Part shown: positions 5,944 to 31,225 of the stretch, one piece after another
Position numbering within the stretch: position 1 is the first letter of the stretch
Layout of the letters: every line of letters starts with the position of its first letter
Origin: Diplolepis rosae
Taxonomy: Eukaryota > Arthropoda > Insecta > Hymenoptera > Diplolepididae
Length of the DNA stretch: 64,000 nucleotides
Direction of reading: 5' to 3'
Assembly (NCBI GenBank): GCA_030998225.1
Contig: JAPYXD010000742.1
Coordinates: 2,418,001 to 2,482,000 of the forward strand
The notes under the pieces: generated by a model
The model's database searches: none
Told to the model about the DNA's origin: nothing
What the model saw: the letters and a program-made list of their open reading frames with translations, nothing else
Program-made: the position numbers and the translations under genes

Positions 5944-5946
5944 TTA

Positions 5947-7215: not shown

Positions 7216-7227
7216 CTGGTCGTTTCA

Positions 7228-12354: not shown

Positions 12355-12782
12355 TGTTACGTCACAAATACGTAAATACTTACTTTGATCGAAGATTCCT
12401 CGTTTTAAGTTAGGATCGAATGATCCTCGCTTAGGGATGAGGATAAGTCAATGAAAAGTACACAATGATTAGTAAAGTAATACAAATTGAATTTATTTAA
12501 ATTAACACTGATATAAACAAAGTTAAAACTTTACAATGATTCAAACAATGGCACAGGGAATAGGTGAAGAATAGGAAGAATTTTCGGTACCTTTGTTGAG
12601 TTGTGAATAGTCCCTTTTTTATGAATGATCCTCACAGGTGTGAGGGAGAGAGAAAGATTCTTCCACTGGTGCGACGAAGACAGCAATAGGTGGTTTTCTC
12701 TCTCTTTTAGTTATTTCCCCAGATTTCTCTCTAGACCTAGCCTATGCCTATAGTACATTCTAATGCGTCGCGGGACGTGACA
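12355..12782 (-). repeat. 3' LTR (internally deleted)
   Basis: It is 428 bp against 694 bp for the other LTR. The missing 266 bp lies exactly between two CAATAGGT octamers present in the full copy (30861-30868 and 31127-31134), and one octamer remains here. This is the signature of a deletion between short direct repeats. Apart from that I see a single A/G difference (near 12522). The deletion removes the 32-bp tandem repeats and the GACGTCACGC segment. A TTTATT (AATAAA on the element strand) lies near 12490. Confidence 0.93.
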
Positions 12783-12793
12783 CCTCCCCCCCT
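12783..12793 (-). other. Polypurine tract for plus-strand priming
   Basis: On the element strand AGGGGGGGAGG directly abuts the LTR beginning TGTCACG. Position and composition are those of a retroelement polypurine tract, which fixes the 12355-12782 LTR as the 3' LTR. Confidence 0.85.
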
Positions 12794-13224
12794 AGTTCGA
12801 GCGCGGGGGTGAAGCATCCGCGATCGAATCTTCGGAAGAAGAATACATTCGTTAATGTTTTTGAAGATACATTGAATTTCTATTTCTGACGTAATAACCA
12901 ACATTCATTTCGGCGTCTCTTTTACAATTTGTATTTTTTGCATTTGACTATTTGATTCCAATATCGATTTTTTTTTTTTTTTTTTTTTTTGTTGTAATAA
13001 AAATTTATATTATATAAATATTATAATTTTTTTTGTTATAAATAATTACATAGTTTTTTTTTTGAAATAGTATGAACTTAACATAAGGTTACATATGATT
13101 TTTTCTTATATAACTACATACATCAATAATTTTTATTTCATATTCGTAAATTATAAATATCATTTAATATAAAATAATAATATATAAAACTGTAATATAA
13201 AACGTAATTTCATAATGTAGATTT
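12794..13224 (-). other. 3' untranslated region of the LTR element
   Basis: AT-rich, with a run of about 22 T at 12969-12990. No ORF or structured motif is supported. It lies between the last accessory gene and the polypurine tract. Confidence 0.5.
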
Positions 13225-13674
13225 TTAAGAATTATTTTTATATTTTCTATTACGTAAAGGGTTGCGGCAGTTATGAGCTAAATGCCCTCTTTGAAAACAC
13301 CTTTCACAAGAGTTGGTCCATTTTGGCAAGGTTTCTTTACTGATTTCATCATTTATTTTGAAAATTCTCGTTTCTGGGATTAAGCTTTTTTCTTTCATTT
13401 CTTCTAAAAATACATATCTTGTGGAAAGCATTTCCAAGAGTTTAGATGCTGCATTTTGCTTTGCAGACTTTTTTTGAGGGGCTGGTTCCCCAATACAAGA
13501 AAAAGTTATTTTATTTTTAAAAATTTCGCAAGTCGCTTGGAACGGTGGCAGTTCTTGGTGTTTTCCAAGCGATTTTACAGTATATGAGGGTTCGGAGAAA
13601 TCATACTCAATGCTTATCTCGTTTAAAACTTGTACAGCAGTGCCTTTCGATAGGTCTCTTGTCTGCAAGGCCAT
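13225..13674 (-). CDS. dsRNA-binding domain plus zinc-knuckle protein (accessory 1)
   Basis: 149 residues from the ATG at 13674. The start is chosen because TTCTTTTGCAG, a splice acceptor, ends 9 nt before it. Residues about 15-88 form a typical dsRNA-binding domain: AVQVLNEISIEYDFSEPSY, a phenylalanine strand (ITFSCIGEPAP) and the C-terminal helix KKSAKQNAASKLLEML with the canonical KKxAKxxAA. Near residue 126 comes a knuckle CERCFQRGHLAHNC (C-x2-C-x4-H-x4-C), then a basic tail. Known single-dsRBD viral proteins such as Drosophila C virus 1A block Dicer-2. An RNAi-suppressor role here is inference; RNA packaging is an alternative. It shares its architecture with the larger protein at 18934-20049. 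Confidence 0.8.
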   Translation of the reverse strand: MALQTRDLSKGTAVQVLNEISIEYDFSEPSYTVKSLGKHQELPPFQATCEIFKNKITFSCIGEPAPQKKSAKQNAASKLLEMLSTRYVFLEEMKEKSLIPETRIFKINDEISKETLPKWTNSCERCFQRGHLAHNCRNPLRNRKYKNNS

Positions 13675-13689
13675 TGTTTTTATCTGCAA

Positions 13690-14036
13690 AAGAATTACCT
13701 ATTTGAGTTGATGATTGAATTTATTGAAATTCTAAAGTTAGTTAGTTTTTTTTTGTAATAATTTTGTGTTTGTTGATATATTCACTTTTCGCGTTTCCTA
13801 ACTCAAAGAGATATTTCATGCAGAGAAAACAGTGGTCTGTTTTTAAGAACATTTTAATTTATTAAGGTTTGTTGTTACATTATGGTGGTTAAGGAAGAAG
13901 TAGTGGTGTATATGAAATATGATTTTAAACAACGAATAAAAAATTAAAAGGGAAAATTTTTTAACAAAAGTTAGTAATAGATATTGTTTATATTTAGAAG
14001 AAAGAATAATAAAAAATATGTTTTGATTCATTATTT
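13690..14036 (-). other. Spacer between accessory genes
   Basis: AT-rich, with only a short hydrophobic low-complexity ORF (13843-14031) that I reject. It ends in the splice acceptor TTTTGCAG at 13684-13686 serving the dsRNA-binding gene. Confidence 0.5.
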
Positions 14037-14468
14037 TTATTCGTCGTTGTTATAAATAATAGTCGATGCTTCGGAATCGACGTCGTTATACAGTGATTCT
14101 TGTTGGTATAAATGAATTACACGTTCGGCACAAGTTACACATAAATCTGCTCTTTGCCGCATGTAAAAAATTTGTGTATTGCAAATGGAGCAGTCGAGGC
14201 TAGATAGTTTTAACGTACAATATAAGTCTTTAGTAACTATGTGGTCTATTCGGACGGGTAATGTTACTTCGGTTTCGAAAAAGCTGAGTTCTGTCATCCA
14301 ACAATCTTCGCAAACAAGTTTTTTTTCGAGAACATTCATGTAAAAATTCTCGACCAGGGTTGTGCAGCAGTATTCTGACCATAATTGATTTTCAAAATAC
14401 GGCTGAACATCCTGCTCGCTTGCTCGAACTTCTTCTGCTTCGATTGTTTCGATTTCTTGGGGCAGCAT
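14037..14468 (-). CDS. Cys-rich small protein, paralogue 1
   Basis: 143 residues, ATG at 14468, preceded 4 nt upstream by the acceptor TTTCCCCAACAG. The N-terminus is acidic, followed by an aromatic segment (YCCTTLVENFYMNV). Paired cysteines appear in the order CEDC, then C-x8-CSIC, then CVTC, with a conserved RQRADLC before the last pair. This suggests two treble-clef or ribbon-type zinc sites. Cysteine spacing, aromatic positions and the R-x-RA-x2-C motif recur in the neighbour at 14608-15015, so the two are duplicates. I know no family for it. There is no signal peptide, so an intracellular role is likely. Confidence 0.65.
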   Translation of the reverse strand: MLPQEIETIEAEEVRASEQDVQPYFENQLWSEYCCTTLVENFYMNVLEKKLVCEDCWMTELSFFETEVTLPVRIDHIVTKDLYCTLKLSSLDCSICNTQIFYMRQRADLCVTCAERVIHLYQQESLYNDVDSEASTIIYNNDE

Positions 14469-14607
14469 TTTTCTGTTGGGGAAATTTACAATATTTAAGG
14501 AATTTGAAATATTTGCAAAATTTAAAATTTTTTAGTATTAAGGATTTTATTAAATTTAACAAAATTTTTCATGCGTGATTACATGCGTGGAAGGTAGATA
14601 CGTATAA

Positions 14608-15015
14608 TCATGCAGGGGTATTTTCTACTAGAACTTCGTTTCCTTGACTAATTTCGAATTTATAATTTAAATATTGTTCGATACATTCTCTACAATCAGC
14701 TGCTCTTTTTCGCGGAGTAATTAATAGTTCTTGACAACCGTAACAATTCATATATATGCATTCCAATTTACAAATGGAATGCCATGATGTAAAAAATTCA
14801 CAGTTATTTTGAGTTTCCTCATCTAATTTCTCGAAACAGAATTGGCAATATCTTTTTGTGGTTTGGTGATTATAATATAAAAACAATGTTGAAGGTTCTA
14901 ATTCGAAGCAATAACTCTGTAATAAGTGCGCGTATGCTATCGGATAGTCTTGCGGACATACACCGTCTACTGGTCCAAGATGGTTAACAATAGGTTCACT
15001 TGGAGTTGGTATCAT
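14608..15015 (-). CDS. Cys-rich small protein, paralogue 2
   Basis: 135 residues, ATG at 15015, with an acceptor (CAATTTGTAG) ending 3 nt before it. The pattern matches the neighbour: YCFELEPSTLFLYY, then CQFC, later CYGC, then RKRAADCRECIEQYL. It differs in having an extra His/Cys-containing central section (SWHSICKLECIYMNC). Divergence from its partner is large although the cysteines are kept, so the duplication is old relative to this insertion. Function unknown; zinc binding is inferred from the CxxC pairs. Confidence 0.65.
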   Translation of the reverse strand: MIPTPSEPIVNHLGPVDGVCPQDYPIAYAHLLQSYCFELEPSTLFLYYNHQTTKRYCQFCFEKLDEETQNNCEFFTSWHSICKLECIYMNCYGCQELLITPRKRAADCRECIEQYLNYKFEISQGNEVLVENTPA

Positions 15016-15021
15016 TTTCTA

Positions 15022-15489
15022 CAAATTGTTAGAATAGATTTATTTTATTAAGGTCTGATAAGGAGATTGAAAAATAACTTTTTGAATATATTTTCTAATC
15101 ATGCAAGGTAAAAGGTTTTGCTAAAAGTATTTTACTTTCCGTCAGAAAAACAACTTTTATATTACATTTTGTTTTTTTTTTTAGTAAGAAACATTAAAGA
15201 CGTGGGTACAAAAACTGTCCTTCTGACGGTATAGGACGTTCATGCACGTGGTTTTGAGGAAGGTAAGGACGGAATGTACCTGTATCTGAAAAAATTTCTA
15301 AGGTGACTTTGAGTCTATATATAAAAAAAAAAGGGTAAAAGGAAGATAGAATAAAGGGATGGTCAAAAGTAGAGTTATGAGTCATATAAAAAAAAGGTTT
15401 CGAAAAGGGATTATTTGGTACAAGGTAACAAAATTGTTCTTAGAAAATTAGTTACGGATTTTCTCTAGTTGCTGGTAAAAAAAAAGAAA
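15022..15489 (+). promoter_or_regulatory. Divergent intergenic region with TATA-like box
   Basis: This 468-bp gap separates the minus-strand Cys-rich gene from the plus-strand spliced gene. A strong TATA-like TATATATAAAAA lies at 15316-15327, about 165 bp before the plus-strand ATG at 15490. A promoter for the antisense gene is the obvious reading, but only position and the TATA word support it. Confidence 0.35.
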
Positions 15490-16818
15490 ATGGAAGGAGG
15501 AATATGGTTAGGAGTTAGAACTTGGATTTTAAGGTTTAGTCTTGTAGATTCTTCTTTCAAGTTTGGAGCATTACGTGCAATTGAAATGGAGGAAATTTTT
15601 GAATTGTTAAGTGAAGTTGATTTTAGTCCCGTAGAGTTTGAGCGTAGTGAAGATATAGACATAGAAAAATTGATTGAGGAAGTTAGAGATGGAAGTGTCG
15701 CGGACAGGAGTGATTATAATAATTTAATTCATGAGTTAGGTTTGATTGAAAATGACATTGAAGTGAGTAATAGAGAAGCAAGAGACAGGAGTGCTATTAT
15801 AAGGGAGTTAGAGAATGTAGGTTTAGAATTTAGACATAAAAGTGGTGTAAGAGTTGAATCCGTAGAGACTGTTAATCGGAATTTAGGTCCAGTCAATGAA
15901 CAAAGAATAGAGATTTTTTGTGGGGGGGTTTTAATAAAATGTCCCTTAGGCTGGAATGAATTTCCAGCTAACGAGAGGGTCACTTTGCTTAATACTCTGA
16001 GGGAGCAACTAGCTTTTCATGGAATAGCTGGTGCTTTCTATTTGAAGAATATTTTTTATGAAGTTGATGAGAAGAATGACCTGAAGATTGTAAGTATTTA
16101 AAACGATAATTATTCTCTAATGTATATATTTGAATATTTCTTAGATATATTTATTATTTTTTATATACAGTTGGATCCGGCCAGAATTCGGTGGATGCCT
16201 GATGGTCGGAGATTGAAGAGGGCGCTGCCAAAGTTGGAGAACAACGTTCTTCAACCTCCTTTGGCATGGTCATCCAATCGTCGTATGAAAATAGAAGATT
16301 GGATAAGGCCATATTATAAAAATCTTAGGAGTCCTTTTGTTTCCGGTGGCATGAGGTGGAAATTACAGGAAGGACGAATCGTACGAGTAAGTGTGAATGA
16401 GAGTGTTAAATTTCAGTAAGACCTAAAATTATCTCAAGATTTGTAATTATTAATTGTATTTGATTTTAGGTAGGAAGTGAGAATTTAAAGTGGACTGGGC
16501 AGGATTCATCAATGTCCATAACTGAAAGGGATCGTATCTTCGAATACAGGGGCAAAAATATAAAGGTGCCCCTGGATTGGATGTACGTTAACCCGAGTAG
16601 GTTGAAGAAAAATAAAGCCCTGCTGAAGCTTATCTTGAAAAATCAAAGGGAGGGGGCTCCATTTATAATAAATGAGCAACGATATCGTCTGGTCAATGAT
16701 GAGATTGTAGAGGTAATATTTTAAAATTCAGTCAATTTTGCTTTTGGGTACCGAGATTAAATAGTATTAATAAGAAATTTTTATTCTTTTTTAGTATTGG
16801 GACAACTGCGAGGAATGA
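15490..16818 (+). CDS. Four-exon antisense gene with three related modules
   Basis: Exons 15490-16089, 16171-16386, 16470-16712 and 16795-16818 join to 360 codons plus a stop. Each intron begins GTAAGT or GTAATA and ends in CAG or TTTTAG, and every junction is phase 0. The start is the ATG at 15490; a later one at 15586 is possible. Exon 1 opens with an acidic, probably coiled region (EDIDIEKLIEEVRDGS). The first three exons each contain a related module: a PLxW box (PLGW, PLAW, PLDW), a basic helix, a GAF/SPF/APF box and a terminal Y/W-x(K/R/E)-L/V strand just before the donor. Exon 4 adds seven residues ending NCEE. It lies antisense to the viral genome, convergent with the envelope ending at 17084. 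I do not recognise the family. Confidence 0.7.
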
Positions 16819-17083
16819 TTTTTAAGATAATTTTGTACATTTAAGTTTCGTGTGATGTTTATTGGTATATTTATTGTTATTTATGTATATTGTAGTAGTA
16901 GTGTTGTATCTTTTGTAAATATTAGTTTATATAATAGTGATAATGTTTCTACGATAGTCATAGTGTGTATATTTGTTTATTTATATAGATTTATGTATGA
17001 CGATTTGTATCGATTTTGTTATTTAATATATATTATATTTTACCCTAATCTCTGTGCAATTTATTTCAATGTGAATTTTCATA

Positions 17084-18874
17084 TTATTCGTAGTCAAAGT
17101 TAAATGTTAAGTCAGTGAGTAAAGGTTTTGTTACTGAGCTTAAAGGAGTTTTTTGTATAAGTTCTATACGTGTTGGCGTTTTGTTTATTTTTCTAGATAT
17201 TTTTTGAATTTTCAATAGTAATAATCCTAAAATTGTAATCATAAGTAAAGTGATAAAGATTAGTGCTAATGTTAATTTATGTGCACTAGAAATAAAAATC
17301 GATGGAATGAATTTTTGAATGTTTGCATATTTTGTAAGGATAAAGACATGGTTTTCGAAGATTGATAATGGCATGTCTTCCTTTTGCTGAAGAAGAAGTG
17401 ATACCTTTTTTAGTAAGTCAGGCTCTTGAATGGAAATATTATATAAAAATGGTGAAATTATAGCAAGGGAAGTAGTTGATTTGCTGACTGGAATTGAATT
17501 ATCCATTATATTCAAATGGTTTTGAAGATGGTAATATGGAGTTGATGAATCTAGATTGCAACCTGATTTTGTTTGCAAAATTCCTATTCCTTGGAGTGTG
17601 ATTATGGTCTTAGAGTTTTTTCGACATGATAAGAAAATTTGTCGGGGGAAAATTGTTGAGTATAGCCATCCATGATGAAATTGCAATGGTGTTAGAAAGG
17701 GATATTCACTAAAACTGATGAATATTTTACACTTGTATGGTTGAGAATTTAGAAACATTGATGTTTCACAAATAGGATTGTTATCGATGTTAGATATAGA
17801 TCTTGGTGGGTGACAAAATGTTTGGAATCCATTTTGATAACATGCATTGAGGAAATTTTCATTTGTTATAAAGTATGATTGGTTATTTGAAGAAATAGCG
17901 AGATAAGAATTTTGAGGTTTTATGTAAATAGAGGAAATTACGTCAGTATTAAAATCGAGATGTATTGGAATTGGATGTGGTTTAAATAATTGAAATTCTT
18001 CAGCAGATGGGATTGGTATAGTCATAATAAAAATCAAGTACTTATCGAATAAGAAGTATTGTATTTTAGAAAATGGAAGGACCATGGAAAAAAGGGATGT
18101 TGAAAGGTGTGGGTCTTCTTTGTTGGATTTGAAGTCTAAGAAGGTATCAGGAAGTAGCATAGGGTGCCATAAATTAGTTGCGGCATGGGTAATAGCTTCT
18201 GTAAGTTGGTCAAGGAGTAAAAGAAAAGATTGAGAAATTTCATGCAGGTCTTTAAGCCAATTTGCTGCTAATATTCGATATAGGTGAATATTTGGATCTT
18301 TTTGAGAATTATGCCATTTTTTGTAGGTCATAATGTTGTCAAGTTTTGAAGAAAGATTTGTAACTTTTTGGAAAAATGGATTAGGAAGTAGAAATAAATT
18401 TTCTTTGGGCCAGTAAAGGGAGGTTTCATTTCTCATTCTTAATTCTAAAAGTACTTTTTGTATCTGTTGCAAGAATGGATCATTAGTGTTAGAAATATTC
18501 GTGATATTACGAGCTTGTCTAGATATAAATGATATTTCTTCAAGAAAATAGTTGATGCGTTGTTCTATAAAATCAAGTTGTGTCTGATGATCGTATAAAT
18601 TACAATTATTGGCAATATTTGAGAGTATGCAATATTCATATAATTTATGTGAGAAATCTATTATTTTGTATTTAAGTACGTCTGGCTGAAAGATATCGAT
18701 ATAAGATATAAAATGATATTTTTCAGAAAAAAGACGAACTTTTGAAATTGGTTCAAAATAAATCCCTGAAGAATGAGAAAATTGTGAGTCTATGAAGTAT
18801 TTTTCTGCTTTGGAGAAGAGGAGTGGAATTAAAATTAAATACACTCTGGATGCTAGTTGATTAAGGAAATTCAT
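17084..18874 (-). CDS. env: F-type envelope glycoprotein (errantivirus-like), envelope 2
   Basis: 596 residues, ATG at 18874, preceded 16 nt upstream by the polypyrimidine acceptor TTTTCTTTTTCAG. A signal peptide is visible (VYLILIPLLFSKAEK). It is followed by SSGIYFEPISKVRLFSEKY, the N-terminal strand typical of gypsy envelopes and baculovirus F-like proteins. The long ectodomain has scattered cysteines and N-glycosylation sites. Near the C-terminus are a transmembrane helix (LTLALIFITLLMITILGLLLL) and a tail of about 40 residues. I do not see a clear basic furin site. The frame is intact. The role would be entry or cell-to-cell transfer. A relic of its start lies at 63232-63410 with the same upstream acceptor. 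Confidence 0.75.
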   Translation of the reverse strand: MNFLNQLASRVYLILIPLLFSKAEKYFIDSQFSHSSGIYFEPISKVRLFSEKYHFISYIDIFQPDVLKYKIIDFSHKLYEYCILSNIANNCNLYDHQTQLDFIEQRINYFLEEISFISRQARNITNISNTNDPFLQQIQKVLLELRMRNETSLYWPKENLFLLPNPFFQKVTNLSSKLDNIMTYKKWHNSQKDPNIHLYRILAANWLKDLHEISQSFLLLLDQLTEAITHAATNLWHPMLLPDTFLDFKSNKEDPHLSTSLFSMVLPFSKIQYFLFDKYLIFIMTIPIPSAEEFQLFKPHPIPIHLDFNTDVISSIYIKPQNSYLAISSNNQSYFITNENFLNACYQNGFQTFCHPPRSISNIDNNPICETSMFLNSQPYKCKIFISFSEYPFLTPLQFHHGWLYSTIFPRQIFLSCRKNSKTIITLQGIGILQTKSGCNLDSSTPYYHLQNHLNIMDNSIPVSKSTTSLAIISPFLYNISIQEPDLLKKVSLLLQQKEDMPLSIFENHVFILTKYANIQKFIPSIFISSAHKLTLALIFITLLMITILGLLLLKIQKISRKINKTPTRIELIQKTPLSSVTKPLLTDLTFNFDYE

Positions 18875-18933
18875 TAGGCTTCTCGGAAGGCTGAAAAAGA
18901 AAAGTAGGATTAATATTGGATAAAATAGGATGT

Positions 18934-20049
18934 TTACATATGGTTGGATTTAGGTCTAGAAGTTTTTTGGAGAAAAGGGGAAAAAAGTCTACTAAATGTT
19001 GAGGAGTTTCTTGGTGGAACTGGAGGGGGAAATTGGGTTGATTTGTCTACTTTAAAAATATTTCGTCTACGGCACTCTTTTGTAGCATGCATTTGAGTGT
19101 TACAAAATCTACAGGAATTTTCCCAAGGTATTAATTTTGGTCTTGGATCGGTTTGAATACTTTGATTTTTGGTTTTTTGCCTTTTTTTATCATCATTATT
19201 ATAAAATTTTTCGTCGCAGAGATCGTATGATCTTATTAGTAGCAATAATAATTTTAAAGCTGCTCTATTTTCTGCTAATTCACTAGTAGGGCCGGCTTGT
19301 ATAACGAAATGTTCATTTATATTAATTTGGTTGGGAGGTCTATATCCGCATTTAAAACATTTTTTAAAGCTTTTCGTAGAGAAAGATGATGCAGTATGAT
19401 TATTATTTGTTTTCATTTTATATGAATTTGTATTGTGTTCACGATTGTTATTTGAAGTAATATGTTTTGTTATTTGGCTACTCGTTGAAGGTTTTGGATC
19501 GTTTATAGATGATTCTTGAATTGTTACATGCAAATGTTCTAGTGAGTTTATCAAACGTAGTTCACATTTCTCGTCTTTATGCGAAAGAGAATTAATAACT
19601 TTTATGGCAGCAAAATCCTTAGCTGTTTTTATTGAGTTTGCTATTCCTATTTGTTTAATGTTATTAATGAAACAAATTGCTATGTATGTTGAGTCTTTTG
19701 ATGAGGTTTTTATTCGTAATACTGTATATTTTGGATACTCAAATTTATTTTCAGTGCAAATTTCGTTTAATTTTTTGCAATTTTTACTAATAGAGTTTGG
19801 TTGGACGTTTTGATTTGTTTCCTTTGATTCATTAATTAAGGCATTATATAAATTTTGTGCTACCTTTTGCTTTACATTTTCTTTATCTTTGCCACTATTC
19901 ATTATTATAAAATTTTGATATTGTAAATTAACGTGAAATAGACATTCATTATTATTGGTTTGTTCAATGAGTATCTCATAAATTAGGGGTGGATCTCCTC
20001 TTTGTTGAATAATTTTGTTTAGTAAGGTTGTAAAAGGAACATGCGACAT
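18934..20049 (-). CDS. Multi-dsRBD plus zinc-knuckle protein (accessory 2)
   Basis: 371 residues, ATG at 20049, one base after the acceptor CTAACATCTTCAG. Residues about 5-75 (FTTLLNKIIQQRGDPPLIYE, then a C-terminal helix QKVAQNLYNAL) and about 93-160 (KFEYPKYTVLRIK, then AKDFAAIKVINSL) read as two diverged dsRNA-binding folds. A partial third follows about residues 235-290 (GPTSELAENRAALKLLLLLI). After that comes a knuckle CRFCNTQMHATKEC (C-x2-C-x4-H-x4-C), then a Pro-rich tail. The first two domains lack the strong KKxAK helix, so they are weaker calls than in the 13225-13674 protein. A relic of this gene lies at 62885-63120. dsRNA binding, and by extension RNAi suppression, is inferred. 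Confidence 0.7.
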   Translation of the reverse strand: MSHVPFTTLLNKIIQQRGDPPLIYEILIEQTNNNECLFHVNLQYQNFIIMNSGKDKENVKQKVAQNLYNALINESKETNQNVQPNSISKNCKKLNEICTENKFEYPKYTVLRIKTSSKDSTYIAICFINNIKQIGIANSIKTAKDFAAIKVINSLSHKDEKCELRLINSLEHLHVTIQESSINDPKPSTSSQITKHITSNNNREHNTNSYKMKTNNNHTASSFSTKSFKKCFKCGYRPPNQININEHFVIQAGPTSELAENRAALKLLLLLIRSYDLCDEKFYNNDDKKRQKTKNQSIQTDPRPKLIPWENSCRFCNTQMHATKECRRRNIFKVDKSTQFPPPVPPRNSSTFSRLFSPFLQKTSRPKSNHM

Positions 20050-20059
20050 TCTGAAGATG

Positions 20060-22090
20060 TTAGATTTGGATAGAGTAGTGGGTTCTACTAAGTTCTTCTT
20101 TTAATTCAGAGTGAGGATAAAGAGTTGTGTTTGTATTATTGTGATCTTTACCTGAAGTAGTGTTTGCGCAATACGATGGACTTTTAGGTGCCTCTTTCGA
20201 GCTTTGTGGTGCTGAAGCTGTTAGCAGTTCTTGATGACTCTCAGCAGGAGGTCCAGAAGGTCGATGGGTACCTAAGTGTAATAAGAGGTTAGTGACCGAA
20301 TCCCAGAAGGCGCCTAGTAGATGGGGAGACCATCCAAATAATCTGTGTAGCGCATATCCATGAATAATGGTATCAGCTATCAATTTAATCCCTCTAATTA
20401 TTATTATTAATCCAATTAGGCCTGCACTAGTAGTTCCAAAACTTGTAAAAATTGTCCAAAATCTACCCCATGCGGATTCAGCAATTTTATCAATTACATC
20501 TTCATTAAATAAATTCGTTAATGATATTCCTTGATTAATAGTTGGATGTCCTGTTATTTCTCTAGCTAAAGAATTTAGAATCATTGGTTTTTCTGCTGGA
20601 AACATAATATGATCTCGCAGTTTATCAAGATCAGATTGAGAATAAATGCCACTTGTTGCTAAGGATGAAGGATTTGTGTATTTCCAGGTTGCTTTTGTGA
20701 GAGGTTTGACTATAGTTGGTGCTATGGATTCGACAGGATTTGGAAGTAATTTGTACCAGGTTTCTCCAAAAAGGTACATTGGTGGAAGGAAAGAATTGCA
20801 ATTTGTTTGGATACCTGATTTTGTTAATATATGAGTTCGTGGAGAAAGGAAAAAGGATTGATTTCCTCTAAATATTGGTAGTTGTAGATAACATTCTTCA
20901 GTTTTGCGATATTTTACTTCAACCGGTATACATTTTACGATATGTACTACTTCTCCTGCAATTACTGACATATATCCTGGGCCTTTCATTAAATGATATG
21001 CAAATTCGTCTGGTGATTGGGTTGCTAAGGTTAATGTATTTCTAAAAACTTGCTGTTCAAGTATGCATCGTTGAGTAAGAACATCGTGATAAAGTCTATT
21101 TACTTCAGTGCGTATGTGTCGTTCTACATATATAAATTTAGAATTGACGTATGTGAAAATGTCCATATTTTGAACTTCTAAATGTTTATTTTCTAAAAAT
21201 GAATTCCCAGGTCTGGTTTCAAAAATTAATAATTTTGGATGTTCGGTTTGTATTAAAACGTAACTGCAAACTGGTTTTCTTGTTTTTTCAGCCAGTACAA
21301 AGGTTATATCTTCAGTCGTTAAAGAATACAAGGTTTTAGAAATGACTGTCGTGTTGTCATATGTTTTATTTGCTGGTCCTTCATAAATAATTTCATATTT
21401 GTTAAAATTACATACGTCATTAGGTAATGTATCCCAGAATGTTTGTCCATATTCTACGTCTGTACAGAATGTGTCTGAAAGTGTGCATATTATTCCAGAT
21501 CCTAATTGAATTTTATTTGAATTTAAATGAATAGTCGCGTAATGTTCTTGTAAAGTTATTTTGAATATTGCTTGGACTACGACATTATTCCATGTTCCAT
21601 ATGGGTCAGAAAATTGTGTACCAGTACAGTCTCCATTAGGTGTTACAGAACCTGCTAAAGTAACGCTATGAAATGAAGTTTCATTTACTTTTAACTTTGA
21701 TATCTGAAGAGAAGGGGTTACTAAAAATGTTCCTATTGTGTGCATTTGATTACATTGATCTCGTGTAACATCATGTATATATTCACTGTGGCCATTTGCT
21801 ACTATGGAACTGTGAGAATGCATACCACAATGAGAGATGGCGCGTCGAATTTCTATTTTGCATTGTATTACTTTTGTATTTGAAAATCCAGTTAATTGTA
21901 AAAGTTGTATATAAGTTCTTTCAACATGTACTTGAGATCGAGGTAGATCACATTCTCCTACCTCTAGTAAAGATAATGTCGTAATATTTGATTGATTTGA
22001 AGCGCAATCGTATCCTATGATGGCGTAGACTGTTGTTATTTTGTTGAAGTTGCAAGAGAGCAGTGCCAAAAGGAAGCCTCGTAATCCCAT
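20060..22090 (-). CDS. Chuvirus-like surface glycoprotein, envelope 1
   Basis: 676 residues if translation begins at the ATG at 22090. I prefer this start because CCTCCTTTTTCCAG ends 2 nt before it and a signal peptide follows at once (MGLRGFLLALLSCNF). The open frame extends 90 codons upstream, but that part overlaps the CARD-like gene and is basic and unstructured. The ectodomain is Cys-rich with CKIEIRRAISHCGMHSHSS, DPYGTWNNVVVQ and IQTEHPKLLIFE. These resemble glycoproteins of chuviruses and related negative-strand viruses (class III-type fusion proteins), which are known to have been taken up by insect retroelements. A transmembrane helix (SAGLIGLIIIIRGIKLIA) sits about 100 residues from the end. 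A broken relative is at 57540-58750. Confidence 0.65.
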   Translation of the reverse strand: MGLRGFLLALLSCNFNKITTVYAIIGYDCASNQSNITTLSLLEVGECDLPRSQVHVERTYIQLLQLTGFSNTKVIQCKIEIRRAISHCGMHSHSSIVANGHSEYIHDVTRDQCNQMHTIGTFLVTPSLQISKLKVNETSFHSVTLAGSVTPNGDCTGTQFSDPYGTWNNVVVQAIFKITLQEHYATIHLNSNKIQLGSGIICTLSDTFCTDVEYGQTFWDTLPNDVCNFNKYEIIYEGPANKTYDNTTVISKTLYSLTTEDITFVLAEKTRKPVCSYVLIQTEHPKLLIFETRPGNSFLENKHLEVQNMDIFTYVNSKFIYVERHIRTEVNRLYHDVLTQRCILEQQVFRNTLTLATQSPDEFAYHLMKGPGYMSVIAGEVVHIVKCIPVEVKYRKTEECYLQLPIFRGNQSFFLSPRTHILTKSGIQTNCNSFLPPMYLFGETWYKLLPNPVESIAPTIVKPLTKATWKYTNPSSLATSGIYSQSDLDKLRDHIMFPAEKPMILNSLAREITGHPTINQGISLTNLFNEDVIDKIAESAWGRFWTIFTSFGTTSAGLIGLIIIIRGIKLIADTIIHGYALHRLFGWSPHLLGAFWDSVTNLLLHLGTHRPSGPPAESHQELLTASAPQSSKEAPKSPSYCANTTSGKDHNNTNTTLYPHSELKEELSRTHYSIQI

Positions 22091-22209
22091 CTCTGGAAAA
22101 AGGAGGTTCCAATTAGCAGCTTGCTTTGTAATATAAGAATAGGAAAATGTTTTATCATTAAATATGTATATTTTTGAAGTTATTGATTTACTTTTTGTAT
22201 TTTGCGTTC

Positions 22210-22491: not shown

Positions 22492-22735
22492 TATATCTGG
22501 AATAATGTGTTATGTCTGAAAATTCATTTTTATTTTGTTTTATATATATTTTTTATTTTATATATAAAACATATATTTTCATAACAAAAAAAAATTTTAT
22601 TTTTTATATTTTTACTATTTATCGACAAAATAAAATTTCTATATCTTATTTAAGTTGTATATGTATATATATAAATATATATATATTTTTTTTTTATAAT
22701 TAAGGTACAGATATTTTGTTTCTATTTTTATTTAT

Positions 22736-25066
22736 TTACTTTTGTACTTGCACATGTGAGCGTTTTAGTCTATTAATGTGGACAACAGTAGGTTTGCCTT
22801 TATAGCTTATTTTGACATTCCCTTTTCCTAACACTTCCAATATTTCATAAGGCCCTGTATAATGGCTGTCAAGTTTTTTAATTTTTCCTCCTTTTAATAA
22901 AAACACGTAATCTCCAATTTTTACTTCTAAAGGACTTATTTTTTTGTCATAATATAATTTCGATTTTTCTTTTGCTGAAATAAGATTTTCTCTTGCTTGT
23001 GTTCGCATTTCATGTAGTTGTGTTACGAAATTAATTAAATAATCGTCATATGTTTGTAATTTTTCTTGTTGTGATAAAGGTTCACTGGAAGGTTCACGAG
23101 CTAGTTTACCAAAAACCAATTCATAGGGTGTGCATTTTGTGCCTTCATGTACACTAGTATTATATGAGAACATTGCTAGTTCAAGCCAATCATCCCATTC
23201 TGAATTTTTTGCAACAAATTGTTTGAGATATTCTCCTAAAACATGATGTGAACGTTCGAATGACCCGTTTGATTGAGGGTGAAATGCTGTGGTACGAAAT
23301 TGTTTAATTCTAAAACGTTTTGCCAATCTTTTTAATAAATTACTTAAAAAATCTCTGCCTTGGTCAGTAAGTACTCCTTTCGGTGATCCAAATATGCAAA
23401 TAAATTTTTTCACGAAAGCATCTGCTATCGTACTAGCTTGGTGATTAGGAAGAGGTATTGCTAAAGAATATTTGGTAAAATTGTCTTGTATCGTTAGAAT
23501 ATATAAGTTACCAGATTTTGTTTCAGGTAGTGGACCAACAATGTCCATTGATATTTTTTCAAAAGCAGTAGTGGGTGTGTCAGTGATTACCATAGGGTTT
23601 TTTGTTTTGACTCTGATTAATTTTTTCAGTTGACATTGTAAACAGCCTTGAATATATTTTTGAATGTCTACTTTCATATTTTCCCAAAAAAATTTTTGGC
23701 GAATTCGGCTATAAGTTTTTGTAACGCCTTTATGGCCTCCTAATGCTGAGGAGTGAGCTTCTTCAATTAAATGAGTTCGTTGTTCCTTTGTTGGATATTG
23801 CGTTATTCCATTGCAAACTATAATTTTTGTAGTTGAATTTGAAAAAATTGAATCGAAAATTGATTTCACTTCTTCCCAAGGTATATGATTAATTCTGGAA
23901 GTTTTTGATATACTAATAGATCGTAATTTAAATTTTTGAGATAATTCATGTAATGAATGAATTGATAATTTTATATTATTTAAAGTTTCAGATAAATTAT
24001 CTTTAGTTTCTTCTTCAATTGGAAGTGCAAAATGGTAGTAGTTTCCTTTTTTAATCTCTTTTGCTATCCCCTTTTGTAAATTTTTAAATTTTGGTAAAGT
24101 TTCACGTTTTTCTAAAATTTTTGATCCGTTGTCGCGAGGAGTTCCATTTGTTGTAACAAAATATGCATAATTATCTTTTCGCATAGTTAATTGATCGCGA
24201 CATTCAACTAAATTTTTCTTTGTTATAATTTTTTCTGTTTGAGAGATTATAGGAGGAGGTTCTGGGGGTGGACGATTATAATTATCATGATCTTTATCGA
24301 TTTTTTCACAATTTATTTGAGATCTTCGGTTTAATCTCAAATTTTCTTCAAAATAAGGCTCTTCAAATTCTTCCTCCAATTTTTCTTCTTGGTTTTCTTC
24401 AAACTTCTCATCAAAATTTTCCTCAAGATTGTCTTCAAAATTTTCTTCAAAATTCTTTTCGAAATTCTTTTCAAAATCGTCTTCAACATCATCTGCAAAA
24501 TTCTCTTCCCAATTTTCTTCATAATTTTCTCCATCATTTCCTTCGTGTGAGGTTTCAATGTCGTTGATTTCATCTTCTGAGGTTGAAAAATAATTCTCAC
24601 TTTCTTCACTTTCAAATTCATTAATATTTTTTGGCTTCTTGGCATTCTTCTTCTTTTTATTTTTGGCTTGAGTTTGTTTCAAATAATCTAAATAATCAGG
24701 ATCAGAGTCGGAATCTGATTCTACTTTTGTTCGGCTTCCCTTTTGCACATTTATTTCTGGTAATTCGTTTTCAAACATTTGTTTTCTTGGCCTACCTCTC
24801 TTTCTTTTTGTTTGAGAGGGAATATTTTTCAAATTTGTAAGTAGATTTTTTCTTGGCCTACCTCGTGGTTTTTTCATAAGAGGTTTAGAAGAAAAATTTT
24901 CGTCTAATTTTTCTTGAGTTTCGTTTCGATTCAAATTTTTTGCTTTTTCTTGCTCTATTCTCTTTTGAGCTCTCGTAGTAATAGTTTTCCATGATAAATT
25001 TTCGTATTTTTTGGAAAACACTGGACTTAATAAAAATATTGTCATAAAAATAAGTCTTGAAGCCAT
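22736..25066 (-). CDS. pol: Integrase with AT-hook and acidic N-terminal extension (pol 3' part)
   Basis: 776 codons from the first ATG; the frame is open about 110 bases further upstream. The C-terminal 400 residues are a Ty3/gypsy integrase: zinc-binding HLIEEAHSSALGGHKG...CLQCQ, then SMDIVGPLP, LTDQGRDF and HPQSNGSFERSHHVLGEYL with the catalytic D, D and E, and a C-terminal SH3-like part. The N-terminal 340 residues are unusual. There are two AT-hooks (KPRGRPRKN and KRKRGRPRKQ), a Lys-rich segment, a long acidic tract of repeated EENF/EKNF units, and a Pro-rich stretch. The frame is -1 relative to the RT ORF, with about 200 bases between them. Expression needs splicing or frameshifting, or the gene is broken. 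Confidence 0.88.
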   Translation of the reverse strand: MASRLIFMTIFLLSPVFSKKYENLSWKTITTRAQKRIEQEKAKNLNRNETQEKLDENFSSKPLMKKPRGRPRKNLLTNLKNIPSQTKRKRGRPRKQMFENELPEINVQKGSRTKVESDSDSDPDYLDYLKQTQAKNKKKKNAKKPKNINEFESEESENYFSTSEDEINDIETSHEGNDGENYEENWEENFADDVEDDFEKNFEKNFEENFEDNLEENFDEKFEENQEEKLEEEFEEPYFEENLRLNRRSQINCEKIDKDHDNYNRPPPEPPPIISQTEKIITKKNLVECRDQLTMRKDNYAYFVTTNGTPRDNGSKILEKRETLPKFKNLQKGIAKEIKKGNYYHFALPIEEETKDNLSETLNNIKLSIHSLHELSQKFKLRSISISKTSRINHIPWEEVKSIFDSIFSNSTTKIIVCNGITQYPTKEQRTHLIEEAHSSALGGHKGVTKTYSRIRQKFFWENMKVDIQKYIQGCLQCQLKKLIRVKTKNPMVITDTPTTAFEKISMDIVGPLPETKSGNLYILTIQDNFTKYSLAIPLPNHQASTIADAFVKKFICIFGSPKGVLTDQGRDFLSNLLKRLAKRFRIKQFRTTAFHPQSNGSFERSHHVLGEYLKQFVAKNSEWDDWLELAMFSYNTSVHEGTKCTPYELVFGKLAREPSSEPLSQQEKLQTYDDYLINFVTQLHEMRTQARENLISAKEKSKLYYDKKISPLEVKIGDYVFLLKGGKIKKLDSHYTGPYEILEVLGKGNVKISYKGKPTVVHINRLKRSHVQVQK

Positions 25067-25269
25067 ATTTTTGAATAAATTTGTGTATTTTAAAATATTC
25101 TTACCAATCTTACTAAATAATTCTTCACTAAGAAATTCCTGGAAATATTCTGGGATTTTTTGAGTCGATATTTAATATTTGGGCTTCCGAAATTTCGCTA
25201 AAACGATCTACGTCGTCTGGTACGATTTCTGGATTCAAGTTTCTTCGTTTTGAAGGTCTTACCTCATTT

Positions 25270-27640
25270 TTAAGAGTTTTCTTGTTTTTTTCTTGTAAAA
25301 GTTTTCTTTGAAAACATTTTTTCTTGGGAAGTCATAAAAGTATCATTGGCGTCAACTTGTAAATATCTTGATTTCTCTTTGTTATCATCAATAGGGTTTC
25401 TTGAGAGAGCGTCTGCATTTACATTCATTTTTCCTGCTTTGTAAATTACATCAAAATCATATTCTGCGAGTTTCAGTCTCCAACGTGAAACTCGTGAACA
25501 AGGGTCTTTAGAATTTTGAAACCAAACTAGAGGTTTGTGATCAGTCACTAAAGTAAATTTTCTCCCATACAAATAAGGACGAAAATGAGTTACACAAAAT
25601 ATTATAGCAAGAGCTTCTTTCTCATATGTATCATATTTTTTCTCAGTATCACTTAGACTACGTGAAGCATATGCTATTGGCTTATCTTTACCTATTTTAC
25701 CTTGTGATAAAATACCTCCTATTGCAAATCCTGAGGCATCTGTTGTGAGTATAAAAGGTTGAGAAAAATCAGGTCGTTGTAAAAGTGGTTCTTCACATAA
25801 TTTTGCTTTTAAAATTTCGAAAGGTGCTTGTTGTTTTTCTGTCCAATTAAAAGGTGTATCTTTTTTCAGAAGTTGATTTAAAGGACTTGCAATTTTTGAA
25901 AATCCATCAATAAATCGTCTATAATATCCTGCTAAGCCTAAAAATTGTTTAACATTTTTCTGTGTTTTTGGGACTGGAAAGTTTTTTACAGCTATTATCT
26001 TTTTTGGATCTGGACGTACTCCATTTTTATCAATTATATGACCTAAATATCCTACTTCAGGTCGTAAAAATTCGCATTTGTCTGGTTGTAAGTGAAGATT
26101 TGCTTTTCTAAGTCTTTCTGCTAAATTGTTAAATTTAATTTCGTGCTCTTCTAGAGTATTTGCATATATAACTATGTCATCGAGATATACAAAAAGTTCC
26201 GTTCCTATTAATCCAGTTAATGTTAAATCCATTAATCTTTGAAATGTGGCAGGTGCAGTTTTTAAACCGAAAGGCATTCTATCGAATTCGTAATGAGCGT
26301 GAGGTGTAGAAAACGCGGTTTTATGCGAGTCTTTTGGATCCATTTTTATATGGTGAAAACCGGTAGCTAAATCAAACACTGAAAAATATTTTGCTGATCC
26401 TAGAGAATCAAGTATATCGTTTATATTAGGTAAAGGATACGAATCGCCAATTGTTTTTTCATTTAATTTACGAAAATCAAGAACCATTCTCCATTTTATT
26501 TTTCCTTGAGAATCAGGTTTTTTAGGAACTATCCACACTGGAGTGTTATATGGTGATTGTGAGGGCTTGATTATTTTATTTTTTAATAATTCGTCGACTT
26601 GTCTTGTAATTTCTTCCTTGTGAACTGGGGGAAATCTATATTGTCTTGAAAAAATTGGAGCGTCATCTACAGTTGGAATTGAATGTTGTAATACATTAGT
26701 AGCTTCAAGTGGTTCTCCTGGGATTTGAAATCTGTCTGCATTATTTTTAATTAATTTTTCTACATGTTCATATTCATCTTGATTTAAATGGTCTAATCGA
26801 AGAAGTTTTTTAATACATTCTACTCTGTCTTCGTCTGTTACATTATAAAATTTGCATGAGTTAATTAGAGAATTGTCAGTTTTTAAAAAGTTATTTGATA
26901 TTTTACTTGATAAATCTTCGTTATTTGTTTGTTTGAAATTAATTAAATTTTCAATTTGTTTATAGCATTCTTGTTCTTCAAAGTCTTCTAAATTAACTAA
27001 TGGGACGGATAATGTAATTGGGATTTCATTTGTGTTTGCAAATTTTAAATAAGCTTTTCCTCTGTGATTTTTTACAACTGCGTCACCTACGTAGACGCCA
27101 TCTTGGATATGTAATCGAGGTACATACCCTTCACTCTTTTCTGTATTTTTTATATTAACATAAAATGTTGTAACTGTTCGAGCTGGAATAGTAAATGTAT
27201 TGGTAGATTTAAAAGGGTAACAGTGGTTCTCAATTTCTAAGCATTTTGAAGTATAGTTTATATTCACTCTATTATCTTGAAAAAATTCTGATCCCAATAC
27301 TCCATCTTCTTCTACTGGGACTTCATTCGGAATAATGTTAAATATTGTTGGGTAACCAAAAATGTTTATTTTTACTTGTCCTGATGTGTAAAGTGGTAAA
27401 TCATTAATTCCTGTAAGTTTTAATACGTTTTGGCTATTTATTGGTACTTCAGGGTTGAGAACCTTTTGTTTAATTAAATTTCGAGCAGCACCAGTATCAA
27501 TCATCATGTGTGTTGGGTTTTTTAAACCTTCCGTTGATATTATAATTGATGGAATTGAAGTGAACTTTGAAATATTTATTGTTGTTGTTGTATGATCGTT
27601 AGAATTGGATGCCAGTGGTTCTCGATTTATGCTTTCCTCA
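25270..27640 (-). CDS. pol: Protease, reverse transcriptase and RNase H (pol 5' part)
   Basis: The first in-frame ATG is at 27507, but the frame is open upstream and overlaps the end of gag in the -1 frame, as usual for gag-pol frameshifting. An aspartic protease motif MIDTGAARNLI stands at the start. RT follows with WRMVLDFRKLNEKTI, FDRMPFGLKTAPATFQRLMD and the catalytic FVYLDDIVIYA. RNase H shows TTDASGFAIGG, YEKEALAI and VTDHKPL. Order and motifs are those of Ty3/gypsy. The ORF ends at 25270. About 25262, just past the stop, lies a good splice donor (GAG|GTAAGA on the element strand), and acceptor-like CCAG words occur about 25145-25155, so the RT-integrase junction may be processed. Confidence 0.92.
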
Positions 27641-29492
27641 GTGCACCCGTGCTGGGGAGAGCTTTGGAGTTTTCCTGATGAGCTGTTTGTGATTGGCTAT
27701 TTGGTCGTATCTTGCAGTCTCGTACTAAATGACCGGGTTTTTTACAATAATTGCAAACTACTTCAGTATAATTTGAATTTTGTTGATTATTATTATTTTG
27801 TAAAAACCTATATTCATATGGTTTATTTCGATTTTGAGACTGTCCTAAGTTAAAGTTTTGATACTGTCCTGGATTCCATTGTCTATTATTATTATTAACA
27901 TTATTGTTATTATTGTAAAAATTTCTAGGAAAATTGTTATTATTGTTGTGTCTTTGTTGTAAAACATTATTATTATTGTTTTTATAATTATTATTTCTAT
28001 TTTGCAAATTATTATTGTTATTGTTATTAAAATTATGATTTTTATTTCTTAAAAAATTGTTATTCGAAAAATTATTGTAATTGTTTCTTGCAAAATTATT
28101 ATTATTATTACTTCTTTGACCATTGAAATTACTATATCCTTGTTGGTTAGGACGCAACAAAAAATTTTTTTGTTTATTATTAAAAACTGCATCTTGAGCT
28201 TTACTTAAATGAAAACATTTTTCAGTTGTGTGACCTGGTTTTTTACAAATTAAACAAATAGTTTTGTTTTCAAGTGCTACGTTAAATCGGGTTGTTTTGT
28301 TATTTTTATTATTAGATGATTCGTCACTTTTTGAATAATCCATATTTTTATTTCTTCGTAGTGCGGAATTTGCAGCTAATCTTCGTTCTATATCAATACT
28401 GTCGCTAATAACTTCTTTAAAAGTATCCTTTTCTTCAACACGAATTTCTAACTCAGGACGCAAACCGCGTATAAAACATTGAATTACGTTTTTTTCAAGG
28501 TTTACTTTAAAATTATTATCTACCTGACCATTATTATTGAGCCTGTGAGCATCTTCGATTTTGTCGGCAATTTCTTTTATCCTAGCAGCATAGGAAAGTA
28601 CATTTTCTCTTTCCCACATAAATGTATTACCTAATTCTCCCTGTAACTGGTACACGCATTTCGCAGGGGCATATACTCTTTTCAATTTTTCTATCAATTC
28701 TTCTATTGTTGTATAAGTAGAACCAAAAATGCATTTTCTGGCTTCTCCAGTTAATTTACCTCTTAATAGCCTTGCGAGGTTTTCTTGAGCTGCAGGTGTC
28801 GGTAGCATTGCCTTTGCCTCCATGCAACCCTCAATAAAATGTGACAATGGGAGGTTACTTCCGTCAAACAATGGGACCACCTCTAGCGCGTCGCGTAAGG
28901 ATACCTGCTGGCTGTTGGGTATGACCACGGCCATCTCTTCGTTATTTACTCTTACGGGATTATCCTGATTTATGGCTTCTGTGTCGCTTTTGTCGTCGTC
29001 GCTATCGTTGTTACTAATTATAGATTCGTGTGCCAATGAGGTTTCCAATCTTTCTTTCAAAGTTTTATTATCTACTGTTATTACTGTTGAGCTTAGCAAA
29101 TTGAATTCGTCAAAATAAGATAATTCATTCGTTAGAGTTTGATCTTGATTACTGGATCCTGTTACAATGCTTAAATCTGGACAGAAACTTGAATGAAACC
29201 CGCTAGTTTTTTCTGAATTTTCACGTGATATATTTTGATTATTAATTAGAGTCTTGTCTAAACTTGAATCATCTAACTTAAGAGTGTTATCTAATTCTTG
29301 TTCTGTAGGGATTGGATCAGGGATATTTTGGCATTTATTATCAGTTGAATATTCTCTATTCCTAATTGGTTTTATTTTTTAACTACCCTTTTGAATTAAA
29401 TCTACTATTTTTGCAAGCTGACTATCTTGTTTAGCTTGACTACGTGTTATAACTTTCGGGGTAGATTCTAAAGGGATATTTGGTTTTGACAT
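27627..29492 (-). CDS. gag: Gag (capsid/nucleocapsid) with one in-frame stop
   Basis: The 490-codon ORF from 29099 has no ATG of its own (its first codon is TTG). The frame extends upstream to an ATG at 29492, but a TAA at 29379-29381 interrupts it after 37 codons. The capsid-type helical region is recognisable (LARLLRGKLTGEARKCIFGS, then NVLSYAARIKEIADKIEDAH). Two zinc knuckles follow, CLICKKPGHTTEKC and CNYCKKPGHLVRDC, separated by a very Asn-rich low-complexity stretch encoded by AAT repeats. The 37-codon piece may be a short upstream ORF rather than lost gag. The gag 3' end overlaps pol by about 100 bases. Confidence 0.88.
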
Positions 29493-30497
29493 TGATTCAT
29501 TATAAATTTACAATATTTGTATTGAGCGTTGATTGTTTAATGTTTATTTTGTAAATTATTCGATTGTTTATAACAATATAAAAAAAATATATATAAAATT
29601 TGTTTTTTTTTAAAATAAAATGAGATTAGTAAAATTTATTTTTAATTTGTTTATTTATTTTTAATAACAATATAATTTGAAATGAAATTTGTATTTCGTC
29701 ATTTGAAAATAAAATAATGATATAAAAATATAATTATTTCAAATATCCAAATTAAATAAATAATCGCTCAATTGTTTGTAAATTTATAATTTTTAATAAT
29801 AAATTTCTTAAAATAAAATATTTTTCTTTACCAACTGCATGTGCCCTTTATGTAAAATCAAAATAATTTATTTTATTTATTCATAAATTGTTTATAACAA
29901 TTAAACAAATTTGTTTATAACAATGATCATTCGAAATATTCATGAATTATTTTTATTATATTGGAAAAGTTAACTTAAGTGCAAATCTTTGGACAATTTT
30001 TTTGTTTGCAAATAAAAATATTTTGTTCCTTAACAGAGTTAAAATTAAAGTTATAAACAATACAATCACAAGCACTTCGAACTTTGCCCTACCCAATGAT
30101 CGCAATCAATGGTGACCGTTCAACGTACCCAAAAGGGACTTATGCTCTCGTGTGCTGTTTTTTTTTTGTTTGTTTTAACTTAAATCAAAACTTAGTTAAC
30201 AAATTAGAATAATTTTTTAAATAAGATAAGTTACTTAATCACTTAGGTTAGCCTCAAGGTCAGATCCCTGCGTGATTTTTCAAACTTATTTTATTTTATA
30301 TAATTTATATAAATTATAAAATTTCAAAGAAATGACTTGTTTATTAAATCCTTAAGGTTAGCCTCAAGGTCAAATCCCTTTGTGATTTAACAAATCTATT
30401 TTATTGAAATTTTAAGTTTTAAAGTTAAAATAATATTTCATAATCATTTATTTATTTATTATTAAGAACCAATGTGTTCAATTTCAATTGACTTGTG
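29493..30497 (-). other. Untranslated leader between primer site and gag
   Basis: About 1 kb, AT-rich. A 30-bp motif around AGGTTAGCCTCAAGGTCA occurs twice, near 30243 and 30356, about 113 bp apart; such repeated leader motifs can serve packaging. Nothing else is recognisable. Confidence 0.5.
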
Positions 30498-30516
30498 TTT
30501 CCCGGCCGATGCACCA
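30498..30516 (-). other. Primer binding site for tRNA-Gly
   Basis: The plus strand reads TTTCCCGGCCGATGCACCA, which equals the 3' end of an insect tRNA-Gly (GCATCGG...CCGATGCA plus CCA). It is thus complementary to that tRNA on the element strand. It lies 15 nt inside the 5' LTR, a wider gap than usual. Confidence 0.8.
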
Positions 30517-30531
30517 GAAAAAAGGGAAGTA

Positions 30532-31225
30532 TGTTACGTCACAAATACGTAAATACTTACTTTGATCGAAGATTCCTCGTTTTAAGTTAGGATCGAATGA
30601 TCCTCGCTTAGGGATGAGGATAAGTCAATGAAAAGTACACAATGATTAGTAAAGTAATACAAATTGAATTTATTTAAATTAACACTGATATAAACAAGGT
30701 TAAAACTTTACAATGATTCAAACAATGGCACAGGGAATAGGTGAAGAATAGGAAGAATTTTCGGTACCTTTGTTGAGTTGTGAATAGTCCCTTTTTTATG
30801 AATGATCCTCACAGGTGTGAGGGAGAGAGAAAGATTCTTCCACTGGTGCGACGAAGACAGCAATAGGTATCCCACTGGTGTGAGGAAGACAGAAACAAAT
30901 ATCCCACTGGTGTGAGGAGGACAAGAATAGTTATCTCACTCTACACTGAACTATACACGTATCTCACGCTGTGAATCCTTTTAAGATTTTAGAAATTTGC
31001 CGCACTTAATTCTGCTCACAAGACTAGTTTTCCCTTGGCGGCGTGTCCTTTTTATATTATATTTTTTGGTGACGTCACGCGTTGCGCAGTCTCCCGCTGC
31101 GTGTGACGTAGTTATACCTCTCTTTTCAATAGGTGGTTTTCTCTCTCTTTTAGTTATTTCCCCAGATTTCTCTCTAGACCTAGCCTATGCCTATAGTACA
31201 TTCTAATGCGTCGCGGGACGTGACA
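30532..31225 (-). repeat. 5' LTR (full length)
   Basis: 694 bp with TG...CA ends. It contains three 32-bp tandem units (CCACTGGTGYGA.GA.GACA) at 30840-30935, CRE-like GACGTCACGC near 31070 and TGTGACGTAG near 31102, and a splice donor word GTAAGT on the element strand at 30555-30560 inside the presumed U5. That donor could supply the subgenomic mRNAs. The terminal ATAC duplication follows at 31226-31229. Confidence 0.93.

Follow-up and report, generated by a model that had tools for sequence, protein, structure and literature searches.

A stretch of 64,000 nucleotides from Diplolepis rosae (assembly GCA_030998225.1, contig JAPYXD010000742.1, positions 2,418,001 to 2,482,000), hereafter the window, contains a Ty3/gypsy-type provirus that is bounded by long terminal repeats (LTRs). 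The provirus occupies positions 12355–31225 on the minus strand, is 18.9 kb long and has the target site duplication (TSD) ATAC on either flank. In the direction of the element, gag and pol are followed downstream of the integrase (IN) by about 10 kb with seven genes, which encode a CARD-like protein, a chuvirus-type fusion glycoprotein (G), a protein with a double-stranded RNA (dsRNA)-binding domain (dsRBD), an F-type envelope (F), two proteins with CxxC motifs (CxxC-135 and CxxC-143) and a second dsRBD protein with a CCHC knuckle (dsRBD/CCHC). All of these genes are on the minus strand, and an additional, intron-containing gene is located antisense to them between the F and CxxC genes. This set of seven sense genes and one antisense gene, which the initial annotation of the locus had proposed, was recovered in full.

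The right LTR (30532–31225, 694 bp) is the 5' LTR of the element and the left LTR (12355–12782, 428 bp) is its 3' LTR, both on the minus strand. The 5' LTR possesses a CRE-like motif, TGACGTCA, at position 149, TATAAA at position 170 and AATAAA. In the 3' LTR AATAAA is retained, but a stretch of 266 nt between two CAATAGGT repeats, which includes the CRE-like and TATA motifs, is missing. Over the 428 shared bases, a recount gave the same single substitution as reported before. The primer-binding site (PBS) TGGTGCATCGGCCGGGAA (30499–30516, minus strand) begins 15 nt inside the 5' LTR and appears to be complementary to the 3' end of tRNA-Gly(GCC), and the polypurine tract (PPT) AGGGGGGGAGG (12783–12793, minus strand) directly abuts the 3' LTR. 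The previously noted duplication, primer site and polypurine tract are all present, but the LTRs are not intact as had been stated, and the copy as a whole is damaged by the deletion in its 3' LTR, a frame break between reverse transcriptase (RT) and IN, and a fusion of dsRBD open reading frames (ORFs). An Rfam scan returned nothing at the gathering score, and ARAGORN found no tRNA.

The gag gene (27627–28934) encodes a CCHC zinc knuckle at its C-terminus. The first part of pol (25270–27507) comprises a protease-like start, in which DTGA was read in the sequence, as well as RT and RNase H. It matched RVT_1 and RT_RNaseH, and the closest solved relative of its RT in PDB was Ty3 Gag-Pol (E 1.1e-96). 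The second part (22736–25066) encodes an IN with Integrase_H2C2 and rve domains, in which a GPY/F motif (TGPYEI) was read directly, and its N-terminal portion contains two AT-hook-like RGRPRK motifs. In the window copy, IN is out of frame with RT. At the RT/IN junction of seven other copies, one frame was open for at least 375 of 401 nt in each, with pieces that overlap only partly.

The element encodes two unrelated fusion glycoproteins. G (20060–22360, 766 amino acid residues) matched the Pfam family Monjiviricetes_fusion with an E-value of 8.9e-246 over profile positions 17–649 of 653. A signal-peptide-like sequence, MGLRGFLLALL, begins at its residue 91 (about position 22090), and a transmembrane motif lies near residue 648. 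F (17084–18874, 596 residues), also downstream of pol, matched Baculo_F (E 8e-23) and possesses a furin-like RQAR site at residue 119 and a transmembrane motif near residue 536. When G, RT, CARD, antisense and F sequences were queried against a viral contig collection, no relative was found for any of the five.

The polypeptide of the CARD-like gene (22210–22491) is 93 residues long and scored below the Pfam cut-off, while 30 of 41 relatives matched at E-values up to 1, the best being 1.3e-5. In comparisons of its predicted structure, the CARD of Dronc ranked first, and by Z the CARDs of Apaf-1 and caspase-9. Its open stretch of 99 codons is within chance length, so that the gene call rests on conservation between copies. 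The longest open stretches of the cassette, counted from stop to stop, were 774, 621, 388, 210, 164, 157 and 136 codons; in 200 shuffles the longest stretch had a median of 103 and a maximum of 182 codons, with 0.1 stretches of at least 130 codons per shuffle. The CxxC proteins of 135 residues (14608–15015; CxxC at residues 57, 91 and 108) and 143 residues (14037–14468; CxxC at residues 53, 93 and 110) resemble each other weakly (E 0.002), and neither had a convincing match in Pfam (E up to 10), NCBIfam or PDB.

The dsRBD proteins are 371 (18934–20049) and 149 (13225–13674) residues long. Their dsrm matches (E 1.9e-12 and 5.7e-7) were both above the Pfam cut-off, they are similar to each other in both of their parts (BLASTP E 2e-4 and 0.002), and both end in a C-x2-C-x4-H-x4-C knuckle, at residue 313 of the longer and residue 123 of the shorter protein. 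The longer gene was likely fused by deletion, because it consists of two separate ORFs in other copies. Similarity within the dsRBD pair and within the CxxC pair suggests that the cassette may have grown by gene duplication. The dsRBD proteins may bind dsRNA and thereby blunt silencing by Dicer-2 and small interfering RNAs (siRNAs). It is less probable, although the best placed of the alternatives considered here, that they serve genome packaging or translation control, possibly as nucleocapsid-like RNA chaperones. A Gag-like knuckle at the end of both proteins would suit such a role, as would the presence of HIV-1 nucleocapsid among the weak PDB matches of the 149-residue protein (E 0.9). However, the better PDB matches, though also weak, were dsRBDs of the RNA interference (RNAi) pathway, gag already possesses a knuckle of its own, and dsRBDs favour dsRNA.

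Search of the D. rosae genome itself (757.7 Mb in 428 contigs) with the LTR identified at least 79 matches, a lower bound because 40 of 1638 candidates were scored. Eight LTR pairs (L009–L016) were examined on their cassette side. Seven of them (L009–L015) had the order IN-CARD-G-dsRBD-F-CxxC-CxxC-dsRBD/CCHC, and L016 was without any of the cassette. The concern that the accessory genes might lie outside one LTR-bounded unit, or recur in no other copy, was thus not borne out for the sense cassette. The LTRs of these seven pairs were about 762 bp long and differed by 0, 0, 1, 1, 1, 2 and 2 positions (one of the last with two gap columns), and all seven are flanked by matching TSDs of 4 bp. Among 20 further 6-kb stretches beside LTRs, which may be 5' or solo LTRs, three contained the cassette end (L038, L053 and L055), four contained distant or reversed pieces and 13 contained nothing. 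In L038, on contig C410, an insertion has widened the spacing of CxxC-143 and dsRBD/CCHC from the 0.4 kb or so of the paired copies to about 1.6 kb. The cassette-free stretch of L016 lies in a region (C323:2281987-2315117) in which three LTRs follow one another, flanked on the outside by TATG, a layout that recombination between copies would produce.

Of 1176 candidate places for the CARD gene, 150 were scored. All of these had identities of at least 94%; 59, including that in the window, were identical over all 93 residues, and seven had a stop codon. Among ENA proteins, 52 CARD relatives (of 53 candidates), 14 dsRBD relatives (of 1133) and four antisense relatives (of 152) were identified, and nine ENA relatives were chimeras across adjacent genes.

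Ratios of non-synonymous to synonymous differences (pN/pS) were calculated by the Nei-Gojobori method from open rows only, with the window as one row. They were 0.25 for IN (5 rows), 0.32 for G (4), 0.25 for F (4), 0.30 for the first (7) and 0.25 for the last part (5) of the longer dsRBD protein, 0.18 for dsRBD/CCHC (7), 0.34 for CxxC-135 (5) and 0.26 for CxxC-143 (6); the overall range of the cassette genes was 0.18–0.37. For CARD, the first set of eight rows was uninformative (0.96, with 0.2 synonymous changes per pair), and 20 lower-ranked open copies of the 150 listed were therefore taken instead, which gave 0.26 over 21 rows. Changes relative to the window that occurred in at least two copies numbered 14 synonymous to 6 non-synonymous, while the corresponding numbers for singletons were 20 and 43; such a shift is expected where selection operates during replication and is relaxed after insertion. 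These ratios indicate that the cassette genes are under purifying selection.

The antisense gene is predicted to consist of four exons on the plus strand, located at 15490–16089 (600 nt, 200 codons), 16171–16386 (216 nt, 72 codons), 16470–16712 (243 nt, 81 codons) and 16795–16818 (24 nt, seven codons and the stop). All exons are in phase 0, and the three GT-AG introns are 81, 83 and 82 nt long. No convincing relative of its protein was found in Pfam or PDB, and the AlphaFold model was of poor quality. In a tandem-repeat test, exon 2 versus exon 3 gave a p-value of 0.009 and exon 1 versus exon 2 or 3 about 0.06, and a repeat is not claimed. The gene was absent from all seven paired copies (L009–L015). 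Compared with such copies, the window has 1726 nt extra (15371–17096, plus strand) between GTCAAAAG and GTCAAAG, a stretch in which the final codons of F are also located. In six of the seven, the gap between F and CxxC is about 340 nt with one common junction; more sequence is deleted at this point in L011. The initial annotation is to be amended in two further respects: the element has two unrelated fusogens, and its antisense gene is of a spliced type that one subfamily lacks.

The antisense gene had 181 matches in the genome, ten of which were viewed in context. In the eight close copies (L056–L063), the end of F adjoins the gene in all eight and the CxxC gene adjoins it in seven. GT and AG were kept at all three introns in seven of the eight, with L060 broken by a deletion, and stops or indels were found in the antisense exons of L058 and L063. 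The other two contexts, L064 and L065, belong to a distant lineage, in both of which the CxxC gene is again adjacent; splice sites of L065 were read by eye. The protein identity between the L064 lineage and the window was about 54% over the aligned exons (76/144, 40/70 and 43/81). The exons of L064 are also in phase 0, with introns of 75, 90 and 83 nt at positions identical to those in the window, at a pS of 0.73, a pN of 0.29, a dS of 2.7 and a dN of 0.36. Contig C84 around L064 contains a complete cassette in the same order as in the window. Given that the whole cassette and the intron positions are kept in this distant lineage, the antisense gene is most simply read as old and lost in one subfamily.

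A fresh insertion of the gene into the window copy was considered and dropped after the matches and contexts in other copies had been seen. It is also improbable that the gene is mobile in its own right and enters the element from outside instead of belonging to it. Absence from the paired copies, the junction common to six of them, a near-8-bp repeat at the ends of the stretch in the window, and the small share of matches viewed in context would be compatible with such mobility. Terminal inverted repeats, however, were no better than chance (343 of 500 shuffles were equally good), the neighbouring genes are the same in the close copies and, for CxxC, in the distant lineage, where the adjoining stretch of C84 holds F, and loss of the sequence between two short direct repeats, like that in the LTR, could explain the absence.

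Identities between the C84 cassette and that of the window were 87% for CARD, 84–98% for the main pieces of G, 83 and 81% for the two dsRBD parts, 70% for F (with a stop), 69% for CxxC-135, 35–38% for CxxC-143 and 74% for dsRBD/CCHC (with a stop). This divergence across C84 (L064, L066 and L067) is uneven, from up to 98% in G down to 35–38% in CxxC-143, a pattern that recombination of lineages between cassette genes would produce.

We consider, with a probability of about 0.7, that the locus is one provirus from a large family of errantivirus-like Ty3/gypsy elements, endogenous retroviruses (ERVs) that were active recently and whose two fusogen genes and conserved cassette likely serve budding, entry and the withstanding of host antiviral responses. 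The initial description, of a young element of errantivirus-like type that carries several accessory genes, agrees with the Ty3-type RT, the Baculo_F envelope, the near-identical LTR pairs of a multicopy family and the purifying selection, although this copy is not intact. That the element is an ordinary gypsy errantivirus (gag-pol-F) with passenger viral genes, roleless cargo that decays between bursts of copying, is already disfavoured and improbable: several copies have a G, F or IN gene with stops or indels, the antisense-less subfamily was recently mobile and the window copy is damaged, all of which would fit it, but seven of eight stretches share one gene order with each other and with the more distantly related C84 copy, cassette pN/pS is close to the 0.25 of integrase, and intron positions were kept despite near-saturated dS.

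If the element works as its domains suggest, the 5' LTR promoter with its CRE-like and TATA motifs would drive the genomic RNA, and tRNA-Gly would prime reverse transcription. The F-type envelope and the chuvirus-type G would both serve virion fusion, and the presence of two fusogens suggests dual entry routes, perhaps to different cells. The CARD protein may act as a decoy that engages a Dronc/Dark-type apoptosome and delays the death of infected cells, a possibility raised by the ranking of the Dronc CARD and, by Z, those of Apaf-1 and caspase-9. The antisense gene would be transcribed from its own promoter into a spliced mRNA, and regulatory roles are likely for its product and for the two CxxC proteins. 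Being antisense to the genomic RNA, in which splicing presumably cannot recognise them, its introns appear to have survived reverse transcription. Since sense and antisense transcripts overlap, the element itself would provoke siRNA silencing, and dsRNA from this overlap would account for the presence of at least three dsRBDs in one genome. The earlier suggestion that these genes are aimed at host defence is likewise inferred from their domains.

On the element-sense strand, positions 12783–30531 are A-rich (39.5%) and G-poor (12.9%), unlike both flanks, with the lowest G content (6–12%) between 15469 and 22509; a deaminase-like bias is one possible source. The right flank contains, on the plus strand and arranged in cassette order, decayed sequences related to IN, G, dsRBD and F (50103–50635, 57543–58668, 62955–63118 and 63232–63366), which are 37–85% identical in protein to the cassette. 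The divergence is uneven, which points to two or more old copies or to a mosaic. The window also contains remains of a non-LTR retrotransposon with RVT_1 and endonuclease domains (5053–7981, minus strand) and, at 33066–57539, large repeated blocks, some direct and some inverted, that are mostly 91–99% identical. One of them has a weak hAT dimerisation match just below the Pfam cut-off (35852–37633), and a similar ORF lies at 53829–54899.

An F-type envelope and a chuvirus G are each known singly in LTR elements. Envelopes of the F type occur in errantiviruses (PMC12992720), and a captured chuvirus glycoprotein occurs in Anakin, a group of mosquito BEL/Pao elements (PMC7642597). The accessible part of the latter report describes a Pao-type pol and neither a second envelope nor an accessory set. 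The pol of the element in the window is not Pao-like, Ty3 being its best solved RT relative in a comparison without a Pao reference. A 2023 survey stated, in the part available, that there was no clear evidence for the capture of chuvirus glycoproteins by Gypsy elements (PMC10084718); such a capture is seen here. Troyka was rejected as a match, as the portion of its description at hand gives no envelope, a 3-bp TSD and CG..CG ends (PMC12440569). Among the open-licence papers listed, searched by titles and the starts of abstracts, no LTR element with both an F-type envelope and a chuvirus G, or with CARD and dsRBD genes, was found, and the combination with such a cassette was likewise not found in that literature. 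The dsRBD proteins of the element would fit suppression of the siRNA defence, given the precedent of 340R of Iridescent virus 6, a dsRBD protein of an invertebrate DNA virus whose RNAi suppressor activity has reportedly been shown (PMC4231766).

Similar to errantiviruses and other insect ERVs of the Metaviridae (gypsy, ZAM, 17.6 and Tirant), the element possesses a Ty3-type RT, a GPY-type IN, an F-type envelope after pol, LTRs, a PPT and a 4-bp TSD. Chary and Hayashi reportedly described 289 errantiviruses from metazoans in 2025. Errantiviruses carry gag, pol and a single env in 7–9 kb. Different from this layout, the element is 18.9 kb long and has a second, chuvirus-type fusogen, the CARD, dsRBD, CxxC and antisense genes, and a tRNA-Gly-like PBS. 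Insect ERVs have been described as gag-pol-env elements held down by PIWI-interacting RNAs and siRNAs, and the family makes it testable how they meet RNAi and apoptosis. Its antisense gene would also offer a clear natural example of introns that persist through reverse transcription.

Because selection preserves the cassette genes, the element is probably the equivalent, in an invertebrate, of the complex retroviruses. We lean, by a modest degree, towards regarding it as the first complex retrovirus lineage of invertebrates, with two unrelated fusogens, its own anti-RNAi and anti-apoptosis kit, a multi-intron gene kept by antisense placement, and overlap dsRNA that would account for its dsRBDs; if so, retroviral complexity arose independently outside vertebrates. 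The complex retroviruses of vertebrates, namely lentiviruses, deltaretroviruses with the antisense gene HBZ, and spumaviruses, also carry accessory genes downstream of pol and an antisense gene near the 3' end. They differ in family, fusogens and hosts, the antisense gene of the element has three introns, and the likeness is one of description rather than of sequence.

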